The position numbers were made by a program, and so were the translations under genes. Below are positions 33,499-38,250 of a stretch of DNA of 64,000 nt, in pieces (the first letter of the stretch is position 1; each line of letters opens with the position of its first letter). The DNA comes from Saccharomonospora piscinae (GTDB lineage: Bacteria; Actinomycetota; Actinomycetes; Mycobacteriales; Pseudonocardiaceae): NCBI RefSeq assembly GCF_005862235.1, contig NZ_VCEK01000002.1, positions 62,001-126,000 on the forward strand, written 5' to 3'. Below the pieces are notes generated by a model, which saw nothing but the letters and a program-made list of their open reading frames with translations, was not told where the DNA came from and did no database searches.

Positions 33499-33506
33499 GC
33501 TGAACA

Positions 33507-33558
33507 AGCACTGACACGCTCGGCTGGGGCGACCGTCCCAGCCGAGCGTGTCAGTGCT
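33507..33558. terminator. 22-bp perfect bidirectional terminator after ppa
   Basis: Arms at 33507-33528 and 33537-33558 are perfect inverted repeats (start AGCACTGACACGCTCGGCTG) with an 8-base loop. It ends ppa transcription and also that of the convergent NUDIX gene, whose stop codon overlaps it. It marks the left edge of the accessory island. Confidence 0.92.
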
Positions 33559-34022
33559 CATGCCGACGTGGTCGCGAATCCGTACTCACGCAGAATCCTG
33601 CCGTTGTGAATATCGTTCCACGCTACGCCGAGGAACTCGAGGGCGTCGGAGGGTAACTGGGCCGGATCCGCCCAGACGAGTTCGGTGCATTTCCGCGGCT
33701 CATGGATCTTCGGTGTTCCGTGCCAGGTGGCGGCGGTGAAAAAGATGTCCACGCGAGGTTCTTGGCTCATCCGGAACCAGGTGGTACCTGGCATCAGATC
33801 GGCGTGCTGTAGTGAAATGCCGAGCTCCTCCTCGGCTTCGCGGACGGCGCACGCCGTCGGGGTCTCTCCAAGATCGACGTGCCCTGCCGGCAGACCGAGC
33901 TGACCGTCCGCGTACCCGGACCCGGCACGCCGCATGAGAAGCGTTCTCTCTCGCCGGACGAGGAAGATGTGGACGGCGAGCGGGTAGCGGTCGTGCTTGG
34001 TGTCGAACACGTACGTCGACAT
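33558..34022 (-). CDS. NUDIX hydrolase
   Basis: 154 residues. The Nudix box GHVDLGETPTACAVREAEEE continues LGI and fits GX5EX7REUXEEXGU. The substrate (nucleoside diphosphate derivative) cannot be told. ATG at 34022 follows AAGGAG. It lies 82 bases downstream of the reductase-like gene on the same strand, so the two are probably co-transcribed; a nucleotide-clearing or product-hydrolysing role beside the reductase is inference. Confidence 0.9.
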   Translation of the reverse strand: MSTYVFDTKHDRYPLAVHIFLVRRERTLLMRRAGSGYADGQLGLPAGHVDLGETPTACAVREAEEELGISLQHADLMPGTTWFRMSQEPRVDIFFTAATWHGTPKIHEPRKCTELVWADPAQLPSDALEFLGVAWNDIHNGRILREYGFATTSA

Positions 34023-34104
34023 GCGACTCCTTCGCTGTCCGATCGTGGGCGGGCTCGTACGACAAGAGCACCGGACGCGGGGTAGGTGCTTACGCTTCGT
34101 CAAC

Positions 34105-35820
34105 CTATCCGTTGGTGGGCGCCACAGCCAGCGCTTTCGGCTGGACCGTGCGGGATCCGTCCACGTACGCGGTGATTCCTTTGCAGCCCTGCTGGAACGC
34201 GCTGACGTAGGTGTCGTAGACGTCGATTGATTGTGCCGTGCCGGGCAAGTTCACCGTTTTCGACACAGCTTCATCGACGCAAGCTTGGACCGCTGCGGCC
34301 ATCGCCAGGTGTCCAGACGGGCTGATTTGGGTCGCGGTCGCCAGCACCCCACGCAACCGTTCTGGCAGTGTCGGGTCGGCTGGCAGGCGACCGTGAGTAC
34401 GAACGAACTCAAGCACGTCGGTACGACCCGCGTCTTTCAGCGCGGCGAAAACCCCAGGATGCTGGTGTCCTGGCTGTTCGGACAACCGAAACAGTGGCTC
34501 GATTCCGGTCGAGGCATCCACTACCGGCGCCGAGCGCCCGGTCGGCGGCACGGCGATCGTGGAGGAGTTGCGTAGCTGCCCGGTCGCGGCGATCTTGTCA
34601 GCGAGTACAGCCCAGTCGCTACGGTTGACGCTGTCCACCTCTAATGCCGCGAATCGCCCTAGAAACCGCGGATCGGCATATCGCGACCGGCCGCTCAGCA
34701 CTGCCGGGGCGCCACCCCGGGTGTGCGCGAGTTCGACCGACGCAAGCTTGGAGGTGTAATTGACGAGCGCCAAGACTTCTTGGGTCAGCCGCCGCCCCTC
34801 GGTGCTGTCGTAGGGGAGCCCGGCCGCAAGCAGTAGATCGGCCAGACCGCAGAAGCCAATGCCGATTTTGCGTTTGGCGCCCATAACTCGTGCCGACACT
34901 GGCGAGGGGTAATGGGCGAGACTCGCCTCGACGGCATCGTCCAGCGCTCGCACCAGCGTCCGCGTGGTGTCGGAGAGCGCGTCGGCGTCGACAGGAAACG
35001 CTCCCGTGCCGCTGAAGAACCGACCGAGGTTCAAGTATCCGAACTGGCAGGTTTCACCGGCCGCCAGCCCCACTTCGGCGCAGGGAGCGGTGGAGACGTA
35101 TGTGCCGACTTCGGGAGTCGGATTGCCCTCGTTCATCCGATCGGCGAACAGCAACCCCGGATCGGCGCAGAGGTGGGCAGCCTCTGCTGCGGCGAGCAGC
35201 AGGTTTCGCTCCCGTCCGGGGTAGGAAAGTGCAGCACTCATCTGCTTGTCGGTCACGTTCAGGGAAATGTTGAACTTCCAAACTTCGTCCCGAGAGTCGG
35301 CACCCACCTTGCAGGTAATGAATTCTTGAGCGCGCGGGTGTTCCAGGGACAGGACGGCCATGTTCCCGACCGGCCTATTCTCCAGTCCAGAAGCCGCTCC
35401 CTCAACGGCGATCTCGTTGAGATAGCGCAGTACGCCGACCGGGTCGTTTAACTCGTCGAGCGCAAAACCCGTACCCATCCCCGCCCGGTGGTAGCCATCG
35501 ACGATCGTTTTGACCTGCGCAAGGTCGCCGCGCAGGTCCACGGGCGGAACCGCGCACGCCGCTAGCGGCCGCTCGTTGTACCGGCCGGCGTTGGTCATGA
35601 TCGGCGTGGAGAAAACAATACGTTCGCTATCCAGAGCATGGCCGAGACGCTCGCCGAACACAGCTGCACCCGTCGCGTCGAAGCGGGCGTCAGCGGTTTC
35701 AAGCGCGGCGACAATACGAGTCACCATATCCGGTGCGGTCTCATGCCTAGAGATCATCTGACCATCGCGCAGATATGCTTCACGGCGAGGGCTGCTGGGG
35801 AAGTTCGAACGATACACCAC
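34105..35820 (-). CDS. Compact class II (B12-type) ribonucleotide reductase-like protein
   Basis: 571 residues covering just the ten-stranded barrel core of NrdJ-type reductases. Landmarks: STPIMTNAGR (73-80 region), LAAC with Cys89, HRAGMGTGF, NFNISLNVTD-like KFNISLNVTD, active-site loop STAPCAE with Cys247 and Glu249, ETCQF with Cys258, AVPPTGRS phosphate loop, and the ending SKTVNLP/GCKGITAYVDGSR. The usual Asn two residues before the radical Cys (N-P-C-x-E) is Ala245 here. There is no ATP cone and no C-terminal redox-cysteine tail. Start GTG with GGGAGACG upstream. Host class II enzymes are usually much longer, so this is likely an accessory paralogue. Confidence 0.85.
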   Translation of the reverse strand: MVYRSNFPSSPRREAYLRDGQMISRHETAPDMVTRIVAALETADARFDATGAAVFGERLGHALDSERIVFSTPIMTNAGRYNERPLAACAVPPVDLRGDLAQVKTIVDGYHRAGMGTGFALDELNDPVGVLRYLNEIAVEGAASGLENRPVGNMAVLSLEHPRAQEFITCKVGADSRDEVWKFNISLNVTDKQMSAALSYPGRERNLLLAAAEAAHLCADPGLLFADRMNEGNPTPEVGTYVSTAPCAEVGLAAGETCQFGYLNLGRFFSGTGAFPVDADALSDTTRTLVRALDDAVEASLAHYPSPVSARVMGAKRKIGIGFCGLADLLLAAGLPYDSTEGRRLTQEVLALVNYTSKLASVELAHTRGGAPAVLSGRSRYADPRFLGRFAALEVDSVNRSDWAVLADKIAATGQLRNSSTIAVPPTGRSAPVVDASTGIEPLFRLSEQPGHQHPGVFAALKDAGRTDVLEFVRTHGRLPADPTLPERLRGVLATATQISPSGHLAMAAAVQACVDEAVSKTVNLPGTAQSIDVYDTYVSAFQQGCKGITAYVDGSRTVQPKALAVAPTNG

Positions 35821-35972
35821 GGTTACTCGTCTCCCTGTGCTCGTCTGCCCCCGGCCTGGGGGCGTTGGAGATCAAGACCATCGTGGTGCCCGGGTGTGCC
35901 GCTAGGATGAAAGACCACTCACGGTAAGTTCACGCACACTCACGGATTTATACCGAATCGGAGATGTAGACG
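35821..35972. promoter_or_regulatory. Divergent regulatory region of the reductase and XRE-deformylase genes
   Basis: 152 bases. ACTCACGG occurs twice in direct orientation (35917-35924 and 35938-35945), exactly 21 bases apart, i.e. two helical turns, followed by TTTATACC (35948-35954 area), the most -10-like sequence. A small hairpin GCCCCC-5-GGGGGC (35847-35863) is on the reductase side. This is where the XRE domain would be expected to bind. Confidence 0.45.
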
Positions 35973-37475
35973 ATGCCCACGGGCACGACCGGCCCGGCAG
36001 ACGCCGAGGTGAACGTGTTCGCCGTCGAACTCAAACGCTGGCGCGATGTTCGCGGCCACTCCCGCGCCACCCTCGCCAAGGCCATGGGATACGACCGCTC
36101 GTATGTGTCCAAGGTCGAGTCCGGAGCCGAAAGGCCGTCCGAAGCTTTCGCCGCACACGCGGAGAAGGCGCTGCGTGCTGGCGGGGCGCTGCGCACTGCG
36201 TTTCGGGACTTCGAAACCTCGCGCCCGACGAAGTTGCGTCCCCCCGCGGCTCCACTGCCCGAACCGCACGCGGGAAACGCAAACCTCATTGTGAACCACG
36301 ACGACGCGACCCTGCGTTACGAGAACGGCGGCTACCGGCTCACCCAACGCCGTCATCTGGTAAACCAGAGCAACGAGCCGATCACCCGATACCTGGTCCG
36401 CATCTCCGTGGACCGGTATCCAGGGGACCCGGAACGGTCGAACCAGCTGTACAGCGAGAATCCGCTCACCTGGGATGAGATCGGTCTACGCGCCTGGCAT
36501 GGCCGCAACCGATCCAACCCGATGAACTGGACCGCCCACCACGACCGAGACGCGTTCAAGGAGGTCTGGCTACTCTTCGCTGGCGAACACGGGCACTTCC
36601 CCCTGTATCCAGGGGAAAGCTGCTGGATCGAGTATGAGTACACCGTGAGTGAGAAGCATTGGGGGAACTGGTTCCAGCGTGCCGTCCGGCTGCCGACCCG
36701 CACGCTGTCAGTGTGCCTCGATTTCCCGGCCGAACTCGCCGCACAAGTCTGGGGCCTCCACACTTCGATGACCGCGCAAGCGATGCCGTTCGCCACCGCG
36801 ATCGGCCGGGATGACACCGGAGACAGGCACGTCTTCTCCTGGTCATGCGAAGACCCGCCGTTGCATGCGCGGTATCGCCTCGAATGGCATTTCCGTGGCT
36901 GCGCAGCCACGTCGGGCGGGGCTGGGCCCCGCCCGAGCGAGGTCATGGCCGCTCTGGGCATAGTGCAGGACAGCAACCCTGCACTGCGCCGCGTCGCCCG
37001 GTCCTTCGAACTCCCAGTCGAAGCCGAGGACGCTCACCGCGTCCTGACCGCTCTCAACTCGGCAGCCGAACGTGTCAGCCAGGTCCATACCTTCGGGAAG
37101 GGCATGGGTATTGCCGCACCGCAAATCGGTATCGACCGCGCCGCCGCGATAGTCCATACCCCGGACGGCGAGTTCATCAGCCTATTCAACCCGGTCGTCA
37201 TCGAAGAGGCTGGCGACGTCGACGAGCAGTATGAGGGTTGCCTGAGCTTCTTCGACGTTCGCGGACAGGTTCCGAGAACTCAGGTGATTCACGTCGAGCA
37301 CACCACCCTCGACGGACGGAAGAAGATCACGATGTTCGAGCGCGGTATCGCCCGTCTGGTGGCGCACGAGGTCGACCACCTCCACGGTCACCTTTACACC
37401 GACCGCATGAGGGAAGGCGTCGCACCCATTCCTGTCGAGCAGTACCGAGGCACAGGAACCAACTGGTCGTACTGA
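35973..37475 (+). CDS. XRE helix-turn-helix protein fused to a complete peptide deformylase domain
   Basis: 500 residues in three parts. Residues about 15-68 form an XRE helix-turn-helix (RATLAKAMGYDRSYVSKVES). Residues about 105-310 are a Trp/Tyr-rich, probably beta-rich domain I do not recognise. Residues about 327-485 are a peptide deformylase with all three motifs: GMGIAAPQIG (377-386), EGCLS (421-425, metal Cys423) and HEVDH (465-469, metal His465/His469, catalytic Glu466). Start ATG at 35973 with GGAG 9 bases upstream. Divergent from the reductase gene, suggesting it controls that gene and itself. Catalytic residues look intact, so it may be both enzyme and regulator. Confidence 0.88.
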   Translation: MPTGTTGPADAEVNVFAVELKRWRDVRGHSRATLAKAMGYDRSYVSKVESGAERPSEAFAAHAEKALRAGGALRTAFRDFETSRPTKLRPPAAPLPEPHAGNANLIVNHDDATLRYENGGYRLTQRRHLVNQSNEPITRYLVRISVDRYPGDPERSNQLYSENPLTWDEIGLRAWHGRNRSNPMNWTAHHDRDAFKEVWLLFAGEHGHFPLYPGESCWIEYEYTVSEKHWGNWFQRAVRLPTRTLSVCLDFPAELAAQVWGLHTSMTAQAMPFATAIGRDDTGDRHVFSWSCEDPPLHARYRLEWHFRGCAATSGGAGPRPSEVMAALGIVQDSNPALRRVARSFELPVEAEDAHRVLTALNSAAERVSQVHTFGKGMGIAAPQIGIDRAAAIVHTPDGEFISLFNPVVIEEAGDVDEQYEGCLSFFDVRGQVPRTQVIHVEHTTLDGRKKITMFERGIARLVAHEVDHLHGHLYTDRMREGVAPIPVEQYRGTGTNWSY

Positions 37476-37488
37476 CTCACAAAGAGCA

Positions 37489-37513
37489 CCGCCACCTGAG
37501 CAGCCGGTGGCGG
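37489..37513. terminator. Hairpin between the XRE-deformylase gene and the lipoprotein gene
   Basis: CCGCCACC (37489-37496) and GGTGGCGG (37506-37513) with a 9-base loop, 14 bases after the XRE-deformylase stop; convergent arrangement. Confidence 0.65.
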
Positions 37514-37553
37514 CCGAGTACCCACGAAGGCGACCTACGGGCCGATATTCACA

Positions 37554-38126
37554 TCACGGGACTTCAGGCAATCGCGGCTCCAAGATACCCGAGATTATCT
37601 CGGCGATCTCGCACGAATTATTCACTTCACTTCCACCGAGTACCGTCACATCAACTCGAGAGGAATCGTCCAACCTCAACGCCATCACACAGTCCCCAGA
37701 CGCCGGGTCCTGTGTCGATACAGCAGCGCGTTGATTGACTTCCCTTTGCTTCACACCATTACCGATATCATTTACTGTGTCAATGCCTTGCGAATCGCGG
37801 ACACCGACAGTAAAGGTAAATCCACCCGAACCTGACTCAAAGTCCGCCTGCCAGAAGCACGATCGCGCGCCTCCTCCTTCTTTGTACTCTGAGTCGAACT
37901 CGCCTACATCGGCTAGGTCTACTACCGAAATAAGCTCACAAGGATCGATCGACGCGCTCTCTAAAACAGAAGACGGAACCGTTGCAGGGAGCTCACTCAG
38001 CGACGTGCCTGCCGACGCATGTGGCTCTGCGTAACCACACTCCCCGTTTGAACAACCAGAAATCGTAATCAGAATCAGGAACGTAGCCGCCAAAGTTGCA
38101 GGCGATACCAGCTTAGTACCTATCAA
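37554..38126 (-). CDS. DUF3558-type lipoprotein
   Basis: 190 residues. A hydrophobic signal ends in the lipobox ISGC, so the mature protein is lipid-anchored. The DPCELISVVDLADVG segment and paired cysteines fit the actinobacterial DUF3558 family, whose role is unknown. The gene and its flanks are much richer in A and T than the rest of the window and use codons rare in neighbouring genes, a sign of recent acquisition. TTG at 38126 is the preferred start (GGGCGAAGA upstream); a TTG at 38180 is the alternative. Confidence in the start is low. Confidence 0.7.
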   Translation of the reverse strand: MIGTKLVSPATLAATFLILITISGCSNGECGYAEPHASAGTSLSELPATVPSSVLESASIDPCELISVVDLADVGEFDSEYKEGGGARSCFWQADFESGSGGFTFTVGVRDSQGIDTVNDIGNGVKQREVNQRAAVSTQDPASGDCVMALRLDDSSRVDVTVLGGSEVNNSCEIAEIISGILEPRLPEVP

Positions 38127-38215
38127 TCTTCGCCCAACCTTTGAACCGGCTCGTCTGTGCCATCGAATCGACCCCCACAACCGAAACGGAGCGACATGAC
38201 CGAACGCCGGGGACC

Positions 38216-38243
38216 GGCCCCGCCGACGTTCTCCGGCGGGGCC
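38216..38243 (-). terminator. Terminator of the gamma-carbonic-anhydrase-like gene
   Basis: GGCCCCGCCG (38216-38225) and CGGCGGGGCC (38234-38243) form a perfect 10-bp stem with an 8-base loop just past the stop at 38251. Confidence 0.75.
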
Positions 38244-38250
38244 ACCCGTG

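Follow-up and report, generated by a model that had tools for sequence, protein, structure and literature searches.

Peptide deformylases (PDFs) are housekeeping enzymes and drug targets that trim newly made proteins. XRE-ImmA/IrrE systems are regulator-peptidase pairs, the RRNPP peptide-sensing regulators include Rgg, PlcR and PrgX, and actinobacteria carry HTH_31-DUF5753 regulators, which we take to be of WhiJ type. The protein analysed here is encoded in a stretch of 64,000 nucleotides of Saccharomonospora piscinae DNA (contig NZ_VCEK01000002.1; hereafter the window), and joins a helix-turn-helix (HTH), a middle domain and a PDF in one chain (the HTH-PDF protein). Relatives are found in many actinobacteria, frequently beside accessory operons and downstream of a conserved DNA element. 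We therefore regard the HTH-PDF protein as a probable local gene switch, a regulator whose sensing part is probably the enzyme. No description of an HTH-deformylase protein was found in the open-licence literature searched; in the excerpts of PMC13118837, a def gene and helix-turn-helix proteins occur in separate passages. The predicted fold of the middle domain, an upstream TCAC element and the divergent accessory and mobile context are new here.

The HTH-PDF gene is a single open frame of 500 codons (35973-37475; domains and motifs in Table 1). An initial annotation of the window had described a protein that begins with a helix-turn-helix and keeps intact deformylase motifs with Cys423, His465, His469 and Glu466, and both descriptions hold. 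The HTH part scores well above the HTH_31 cut-off, with helices predicted by the structure model at residues 15-27, 31-38, 42-50, 57-67 and 72-82. The four catalytic motif residues are invariant in 56/56 aligned fused proteins, comprising the window protein and 55 of 57 fused loci; the alignment leaves out L053, whose PDF is interrupted by a frame break, and L055, which nearly duplicates L054. Gly377, Gly379, Ala381, Ala382, Gln384, Glu421, Gly422, Ser425, Arg430 and Asp468 are equally invariant (56/56). The Pfam family Pep_deformylase (PF01327) matches residues 329-481 with E 2.7e-30 and 105.5 bits against a cut-off of 22.8, which removes the concern that this part might fail the PDF profile, and the C-terminal domain has the PDF fold. 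It scores under the NCBIfam equivalog cut-off of TIGR00079 (89.6 versus 103.95 bits). Ratios of nonsynonymous to synonymous substitution (dN/dS) were 0.05-0.26 across four pairwise comparisons of every domain, rough values because synonymous divergence (dS) exceeded 1 in 8/12 of them, and point to purifying selection on all three. The constancy of the catalytic residues suggests that function depends on catalysis as well as on binding. The genome encodes two PDFs besides the HTH-PDF protein.

The middle domain had been noted as unrecognised, and at the level of families this stands: the ~205 residues at about 100-310 match no Pfam family above the curated cut-off. Its fold is nevertheless recognisable. 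In a structure search with the predicted model it resembles the N-terminal sandwich of M1 aminopeptidases (M1-N) and an Ost1 domain; the matches are mainly oligosaccharyltransferase and M1 aminopeptidase structures, with sequence identity of 6-12% among the rows shown, and one of them, 3kd4_A, is presumably of DUF3857 type. DUF3857 (PF12969) is also the sole weak Pfam match of the middle part (E 0.07, 13.6 bits versus 24.6). A second scoring with this profile gave 13.9 bits, and 10 of 49 family members matched at E <= 0.1 (best 0.0016); by sequence profile, membership of DUF3857 thus stays below the cut-off of 24.6 bits. The matched sandwich domains sit next to peptide-acting enzymes. A fold otherwise matched mainly in oligosaccharyltransferase and M1 aminopeptidase structures would now be placed in a putative regulator.

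Scanning the middle domain against a genome collection of 84,980 species yielded 400 pattern matches, and 365 of these held up as relatives. Locus counts given below refer to the best 80 of these 365 stretches, so that distant members are under-sampled. By their record titles all 80 loci are actinobacterial, and in 80/80 a deformylase match lies directly 3' of the middle domain (an incomplete match in L087 and a two-piece one in L053). Middle domain and PDF share one open frame in 57/80 loci; in 22/80 the PDF is a separate reading frame directly after, and in most of these split loci the called PDF gene overlaps the stop of the first gene by 4 bases. One of the 22, L087, has a partial PDF match alone, with no separate PDF gene called, and in one locus of the 80, L070, the frame is broken inside the middle domain. 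The HTH-middle-PDF fusion is natural: recurrence of the same open frame in 57 loci rules out that a sequencing error joined two genes, a possibility raised in the initial annotation, and the layout described there has proved to be that of a widespread family. Elsewhere, genome G048 has a gene on the opposite strand between HTH-middle and PDF, and genome G050 has a fused copy together with an HTH-middle paralogue that has no PDF before the end of its frame. In L106 (10663-11846) and L107 (1086-2257) the HTH-middle gene is followed by two tandem PDF matches. L105, L110 and L112 (Frankia) and L009 (G046) combine this middle domain and PDF with a different N-terminal domain.

In a PDF tree of 97 sequences, 84 family members stand apart from 13 other actinobacterial PDFs with support 95/80; the placement of one family row and of several of the other PDFs, all on long branches, is unsure. 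Mapped on this tree, the label 'fused' requires 4 changes and the label 'split' 5. The second PDF copies of L106 and L107 branch outside the other fused and split rows, that of L029 excepted. PDF motifs are complete in 82/84 family rows by a looser motif search, and the remaining two rows are partial pieces.

Within the GTDB family of the window the middle domain was matched in 53/297 genomes; 8 of these matches are partial or weak, and one more (G643) lies in a truncated frame, as read by eye from the table. Counted by eye, 47 matches are strong (E 3e-85 or better), 46 of them, counted by frame length, in open frames of at least 500 residues and that of G643 in a frame of 311. The domain was absent from 11/11 other genomes of the same genus searched, and a phylum sample had it in 3/396 genomes. 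Plasmids carry it as well: 35 records match at E 1e-20 or better (31 Streptomyces, 3 Nocardia and 1 Nonomuraea), 13/35 over at least 80% of the query. On these matches the window protein belongs to a widespread, mobile actinobacterial family. That family is hidden in databases under plain 'peptide deformylase' annotation, the sole description in 14 of the 20 plasmid rows listed from the 35 records; three of these 14 rows cover 49-70% of the query.

The stretch 35821-35972, which the initial annotation had singled out, contains a conserved element. In the window it reads CTCACGGTAAGTTCACGCACACTCACGG (35918-35945) and begins 9 bases after the TAGGAT hexamer. The pattern CTCACGGNNNNYTCACGCNYNCTCACGG, allowing <= 3 mismatches, occurs once in the window, exactly, against 0.03 expected. 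Genomes G000, G012 and G034 each contain a single exact copy, immediately upstream of their own gene; G000 and G034 also show one 3-mismatch place each. The fourth gene-bearing genome searched, G027, has no copy within 3 mismatches. Upstream regions were compared for 79 loci and the window (L070, without a usable start, was left out), and the 28-base pattern with <= 3 mismatches was found in 36/80. TCAC density near starts was 3.4 per 260 bases versus 0.98 for 15383 control windows taken within these loci; series of two or more TCAC at 9-12 bp spacing occurred in 52/80 upstream regions versus 278/15383 control windows. Nine plasmid upstream regions were printed; by eye, eight show at least two TCAC-type repeats, and in the ninth, L133, an insertion sequence lies immediately upstream.

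Where the HTH is replaced, the element is nearly absent. In L080, L105, L110 and L112 the N-terminal part is unrelated to the HTH of the window, and the upstream regions hold 0, 0, 1 and 0 TCAC, with 8-9 mismatches to the pattern. By eye, L110 and L112 share a GGCATAGCGTCGT-ATCCTGA-like stretch there and no TCAC element. RNA of the element stretch folds no better than shuffles (z -0.31), which fits a DNA-level element. In form, the TCAC element could be a site bound by the HTH, and we treat it as a putative operator.

What lies upstream is often a divergent gene: the first called upstream gene is divergent in 59/78 loci, 54 of them within 350 bases. Cluster and gene names of neighbours without a Pfam run are readings by eye. 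Pfam matches among 20 selected divergent-side genes included Gfo/Idh dehydrogenases, TauD, a DegT aminotransferase, a pyridoxal-phosphate (PLP) decarboxylase, a Mur ligase, ThiF, radical SAM proteins with and without SPASM, a class II tRNA-synthetase domain and weak glycosyltransferase matches, and 5 of the 20 had no Pfam family; a tally over 70 neighbour proteins adds LanC-like, Lant_dehydr_C, PCMT, epimerase and NUDIX. A lantibiotic dehydratase lies on the divergent side in L036, and radical SAM proteins in L037 and L052. Ten plasmid regions were read out of the 35 records, and eight have an ordinary divergent upstream gene. One shows a divergent radical SAM/SPASM gene with creatininase and glycosyltransferase genes, three show 6-carboxytetrahydropterin synthase with QueE and GTP cyclohydrolase (deazapurine-type operons), single regions show a divergent methyltransferase, glycosyltransferase or D-Ala-D-Ala ligase, and another a divergent hypothetical protein with a MazF-type toxin. 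The ninth region has a divergent transposase in the upstream position, and the tenth a truncated regulator and no divergent gene. By eye, genes of integrase, replication and GntR type are found near several Streptomyces loci, in settings that presumably resemble actinomycete integrative elements. The common point of these neighbours is accessory, movable and often biosynthetic cargo.

We give about even credence to the reading that the HTH-PDF protein is a portable local autoregulator, or switch, of actinobacteria that is gated by its deformylase module. Its observed base is the architecture and its occurrence in fused and split versions, catalytic residues that do not vary, a conserved element that is nearly missing upstream of replaced HTHs, divergent placement in many loci and signs of horizontal spread. 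From this base we infer DNA binding, autoregulation and control of the neighbouring operon. The N-terminal HTH would bind the TCAC-repeat element and, given the position of the element between the -10-like hexamer and the start codon, would repress the HTH-PDF gene itself. It would also control the divergently transcribed accessory operon, here a ribonucleotide reductase (RNR)-like gene and a NUDIX gene, and elsewhere genes of the ribosomally synthesized and post-translationally modified peptide (RiPP) type, of deazapurine type, or for glycosyltransferases or cell-wall ligases. Sandwich and deformylase together would form a peptide-handling sensor, in which binding or deformylation of N-formylmethionyl peptides changes DNA binding. 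A formyl peptide as the signal, rather than a PDF inhibitor, a metal or a redox state, is speculation. Formyl peptides have a precedent in RiPP biology, since a deformylase in the target cell removes the formyl group of microcin C (excerpt of PMC12250964). A one-carbon signal is possible too, given that def mutations protected Methylorubrum from formaldehyde (excerpt of PMC8153426). If this reading is true, the family would link nascent-protein chemistry to the control of accessory, often antibiotic-type gene clusters. With the PDF as sensor, formyl peptides or PDF inhibitors would be worth trying to wake silent clusters, and the TCAC element would mark the operons under control.

Several observations weigh against the switch. 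Gene calls around the loci are crude, made in this analysis, and the first upstream gene was called non-divergent in 19/78 loci, among them L092, wrongly, as tblastn places the RNR there. Some neighbours are not biosynthetic, for example the MazF-type toxin and partition genes. The predicted full-length structure has a predicted template-modelling score (pTM) of 0.48, so that the placing of the domains relative to each other is uncertain, and a sigma-70 consensus scan gave no promoter upstream of the HTH-PDF gene. For the element, the pattern was built from loci that were later counted and the loci are related, which makes the counts descriptive; the contrast between related and replaced HTHs rests on few loci (four with a replaced HTH). 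Moreover, 13 loci with a related HTH likewise show 8-10 mismatches to the pattern. Twelve of these keep at least two TCAC upstream, where the element is at best looser, and L072 has one. Among the eight plasmid loci with repeats, four show just two adjacent TCAC.

A more specific form of the switch would be a bacterial formyl-peptide receptor, an intracellular one-component regulator in which a working PDF reads N-formylmethionyl peptides and gates antibiotic-type or other accessory operons. We regard this form as unlikely. Such peptides would come from the protein's own operon, from neighbours or from disturbed translation, and the receptor itself would erase the formyl signal.

The PDF domain might instead serve as a target-mimic alarm, either a bait for natural inhibitors (actinonin-like hydroxamates) or a reporter of lost PDF function. 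Binding would relieve repression and yield more of a spare, perhaps less sensitive PDF together with the product of the divergent operon. The presence of a third PDF, its motifs intact, beside the two others of the genome, the putative self-regulatory element upstream, the tandem PDF matches of L106 and L107 and the making of actinonin by a Streptomyces (excerpt of PMC5719088) all agree with such an alarm. The divergent operons, however, are very diverse, and the ten plasmid annotations read name no inhibitor-biosynthesis genes, at which no search was aimed; on balance we rate the alarm as a rather doubtful candidate.

The separate PDF gene of the 22 split loci also suits an enzyme beside a passive regulator: the PDF would deformylate a peptide that the neighbouring operon makes, as product or precursor, and the HTH would only set the dose, with no signal passing through the PDF. 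RiPP-type neighbours in L036, L034, L037 and L052 argue in the same direction, as does the use of a deformylase in microcin C processing (excerpt of PMC12250964). Many neighbours, however, make no obvious peptide (glycosyltransferases, RNR, deazapurine-type genes), and such a division of labour seems quite unlikely to us. Improbable, finally, is a metal or redox sensor, in which the Cys-His-His site, where many PDFs carry Fe2+, would report iron or oxidation and not peptides, for although the ligands are intact in the 56 aligned fused proteins and in 82/84 PDF rows, Gln384 and Arg430, dispensable for the metal site, are equally invariant, and an M1-N-type sandwich is attached.

Table 1. Features of the HTH-PDF gene, its upstream region and the surrounding island (window coordinates)
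Feature	Position	Strand	Basis or remark
Inserted island, approximate bounds	33499..38250	.	between ppa and hexapeptide-repeat-type protein
NUDIX hydrolase, beside RNR-like gene, cargo	33558..34103	-	
Class II ribonucleotide-reductase-like protein, divergent, 571 residues, cargo	34105..35820	-	
-10-like hexamer TAGGAT	35903..35908	+	by eye, lines up with TAGGCT of numerous relatives
Putative 28-base operator with three TCAC direct repeats spaced ~10-11 bp	35918..35945	+	starts 55 bases before start codon
HTH - M1-N-like sandwich - peptide deformylase protein, 500 residues	35973..37475	+	frame, Pfam, alignment, model
HTH_31 DNA-binding domain, residues 16-76	36018..36200	+	Pfam E 6.8e-11, 42.8 bits, cut-off 27
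Middle domain, residues 105-308, predicted beta-sandwich	36285..36896	+	resembles N-domain of M1 aminopeptidases and an Ost1 domain
Peptide deformylase domain, residues 325-492 (Pfam match 329-481)	36945..37448	+	
PDF motif 1, GMGIAAPQ, residues 377-384	37101..37124	+	
PDF motif 2, EGCLS, residues 421-425, metal ligand Cys423	37233..37247	+	
PDF motif 3, HEVDH, residues 465-469, metal ligands His465 and His469, Glu466	37365..37379	+	
DUF3558 gene, in lowest-G+C part of island	37554..38180	-	

The gene lies in a small island (Table 1). G+C is 0.58-0.66 in 1-kb windows over 33.0-39.0 kb, against 0.67-0.76 in the flanks within the range printed, and the distance from ppa to the hexapeptide-repeat-type protein is 115-580 bases in 7/7 same-genus genomes searched versus 4758 here (aligned parts). 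From the short gap in relatives and the lowered G+C, we conclude that the NUDIX, RNR-like and HTH-PDF genes, and perhaps the DUF3558 gene, are an insertion. RNR-like and NUDIX genes adjoin the HTH-PDF gene in L040 and L092 as well; in L034 only the RNR-like gene does. G012 has the pair at about 8500-10763 of L129, unlinked to the HTH-PDF gene of that genome, which makes the two genes cargo rather than an obligate partner; they seem to move independently.

The RNR-like protein is the third RNR-type match of the genome. Together with four relatives it has APCAE where the other class II RNR of the genome has NPCSE, an Asn-to-Ala change that adjoins what we presume to be the radical cysteine. All five proteins keep the cysteines of AAC and ETCQ and miss a long C-terminal part, and the substrate may not be an ordinary nucleotide. 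In L034 (1373-9486) an RNR-like gene heads co-directional PCMT-, LanB-, LanC- and SpaB_C-type genes (partly by eye), so placed that the radical enzyme has possibly been recruited to a lanthipeptide-type cluster. The NUDIX protein matches the PADLOC candidate defence family PDC-S07 with E 1.5e-9, which may reflect general NUDIX likeness alone.

Other neighbourhoods also recur. Among Streptomyces and Kitasatospora loci within L093-L113, an operon divergent from the split HTH/PDF pair occurs in 13-14 loci, with glycosyltransferase-like genes, a 234-residue protein of no assigned kind and a P-loop-kinase-like gene. L064 (7188-9570) and L050 (7998-8342) contain a small open reading frame (ORF) starting MYPYGFADDPIASHSAQFGLG; in L064 it is followed by a 317-residue protein and a PIMT-type methyltransferase, an arrangement that we take to resemble a graspetide operon. 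Annotated type I-E CRISPR genes lie within ~10 kb in L140, and Cas-like proteins or repeat-like ORFs, by eye, within ~10 kb in L037 and L043.

Several known systems share features with the HTH-PDF protein. With ordinary peptide deformylase (Def, PF01327) it has profile, motifs and fold in common; it differs in its HTH and sandwich, in its score under TIGR00079 and in a branch apart from the 13 other actinobacterial PDFs. The M1 aminopeptidase N-terminal domain, the Ost1 domain and DUF3857 have the same predicted fold as its middle domain, but here the sandwich stands between HTH and PDF, and the sequence identity is as given above. HTH_31-DUF5753 regulators have the same HTH class (PF13560), and regulators of that type also adjoin graspetide loci (excerpt of PMC8939145); no DUF5753 is among the Pfam matches of our protein, which has a PDF in its place.

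Two further systems are peptide-related. As in RRNPP regulators, an XRE HTH is joined to a putative peptide-binding part, sometimes by RiPP-type operons; the Pfam scan of the protein gave no tetratricopeptide repeat (TPR) family, and models show a sandwich and a PDF. With a formyl-peptide receptor, actinobacteria would have their own equivalent of RRNPP peptide signalling. As in XRE-ImmA/IrrE, the XRE part is tied, fused or neighbouring, to a metal-dependent peptide-acting enzyme, also on mobile DNA. This likeness, drawn in the initial annotation, holds as an analogy only; no ImmA/IrrE peptidase family is among the Pfam matches of the protein at E up to 1, and the enzyme here is a deformylase. 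By analogy, the HTH-PDF protein could work like an XRE-ImmA pair or an RRNPP regulator without being a member of either.
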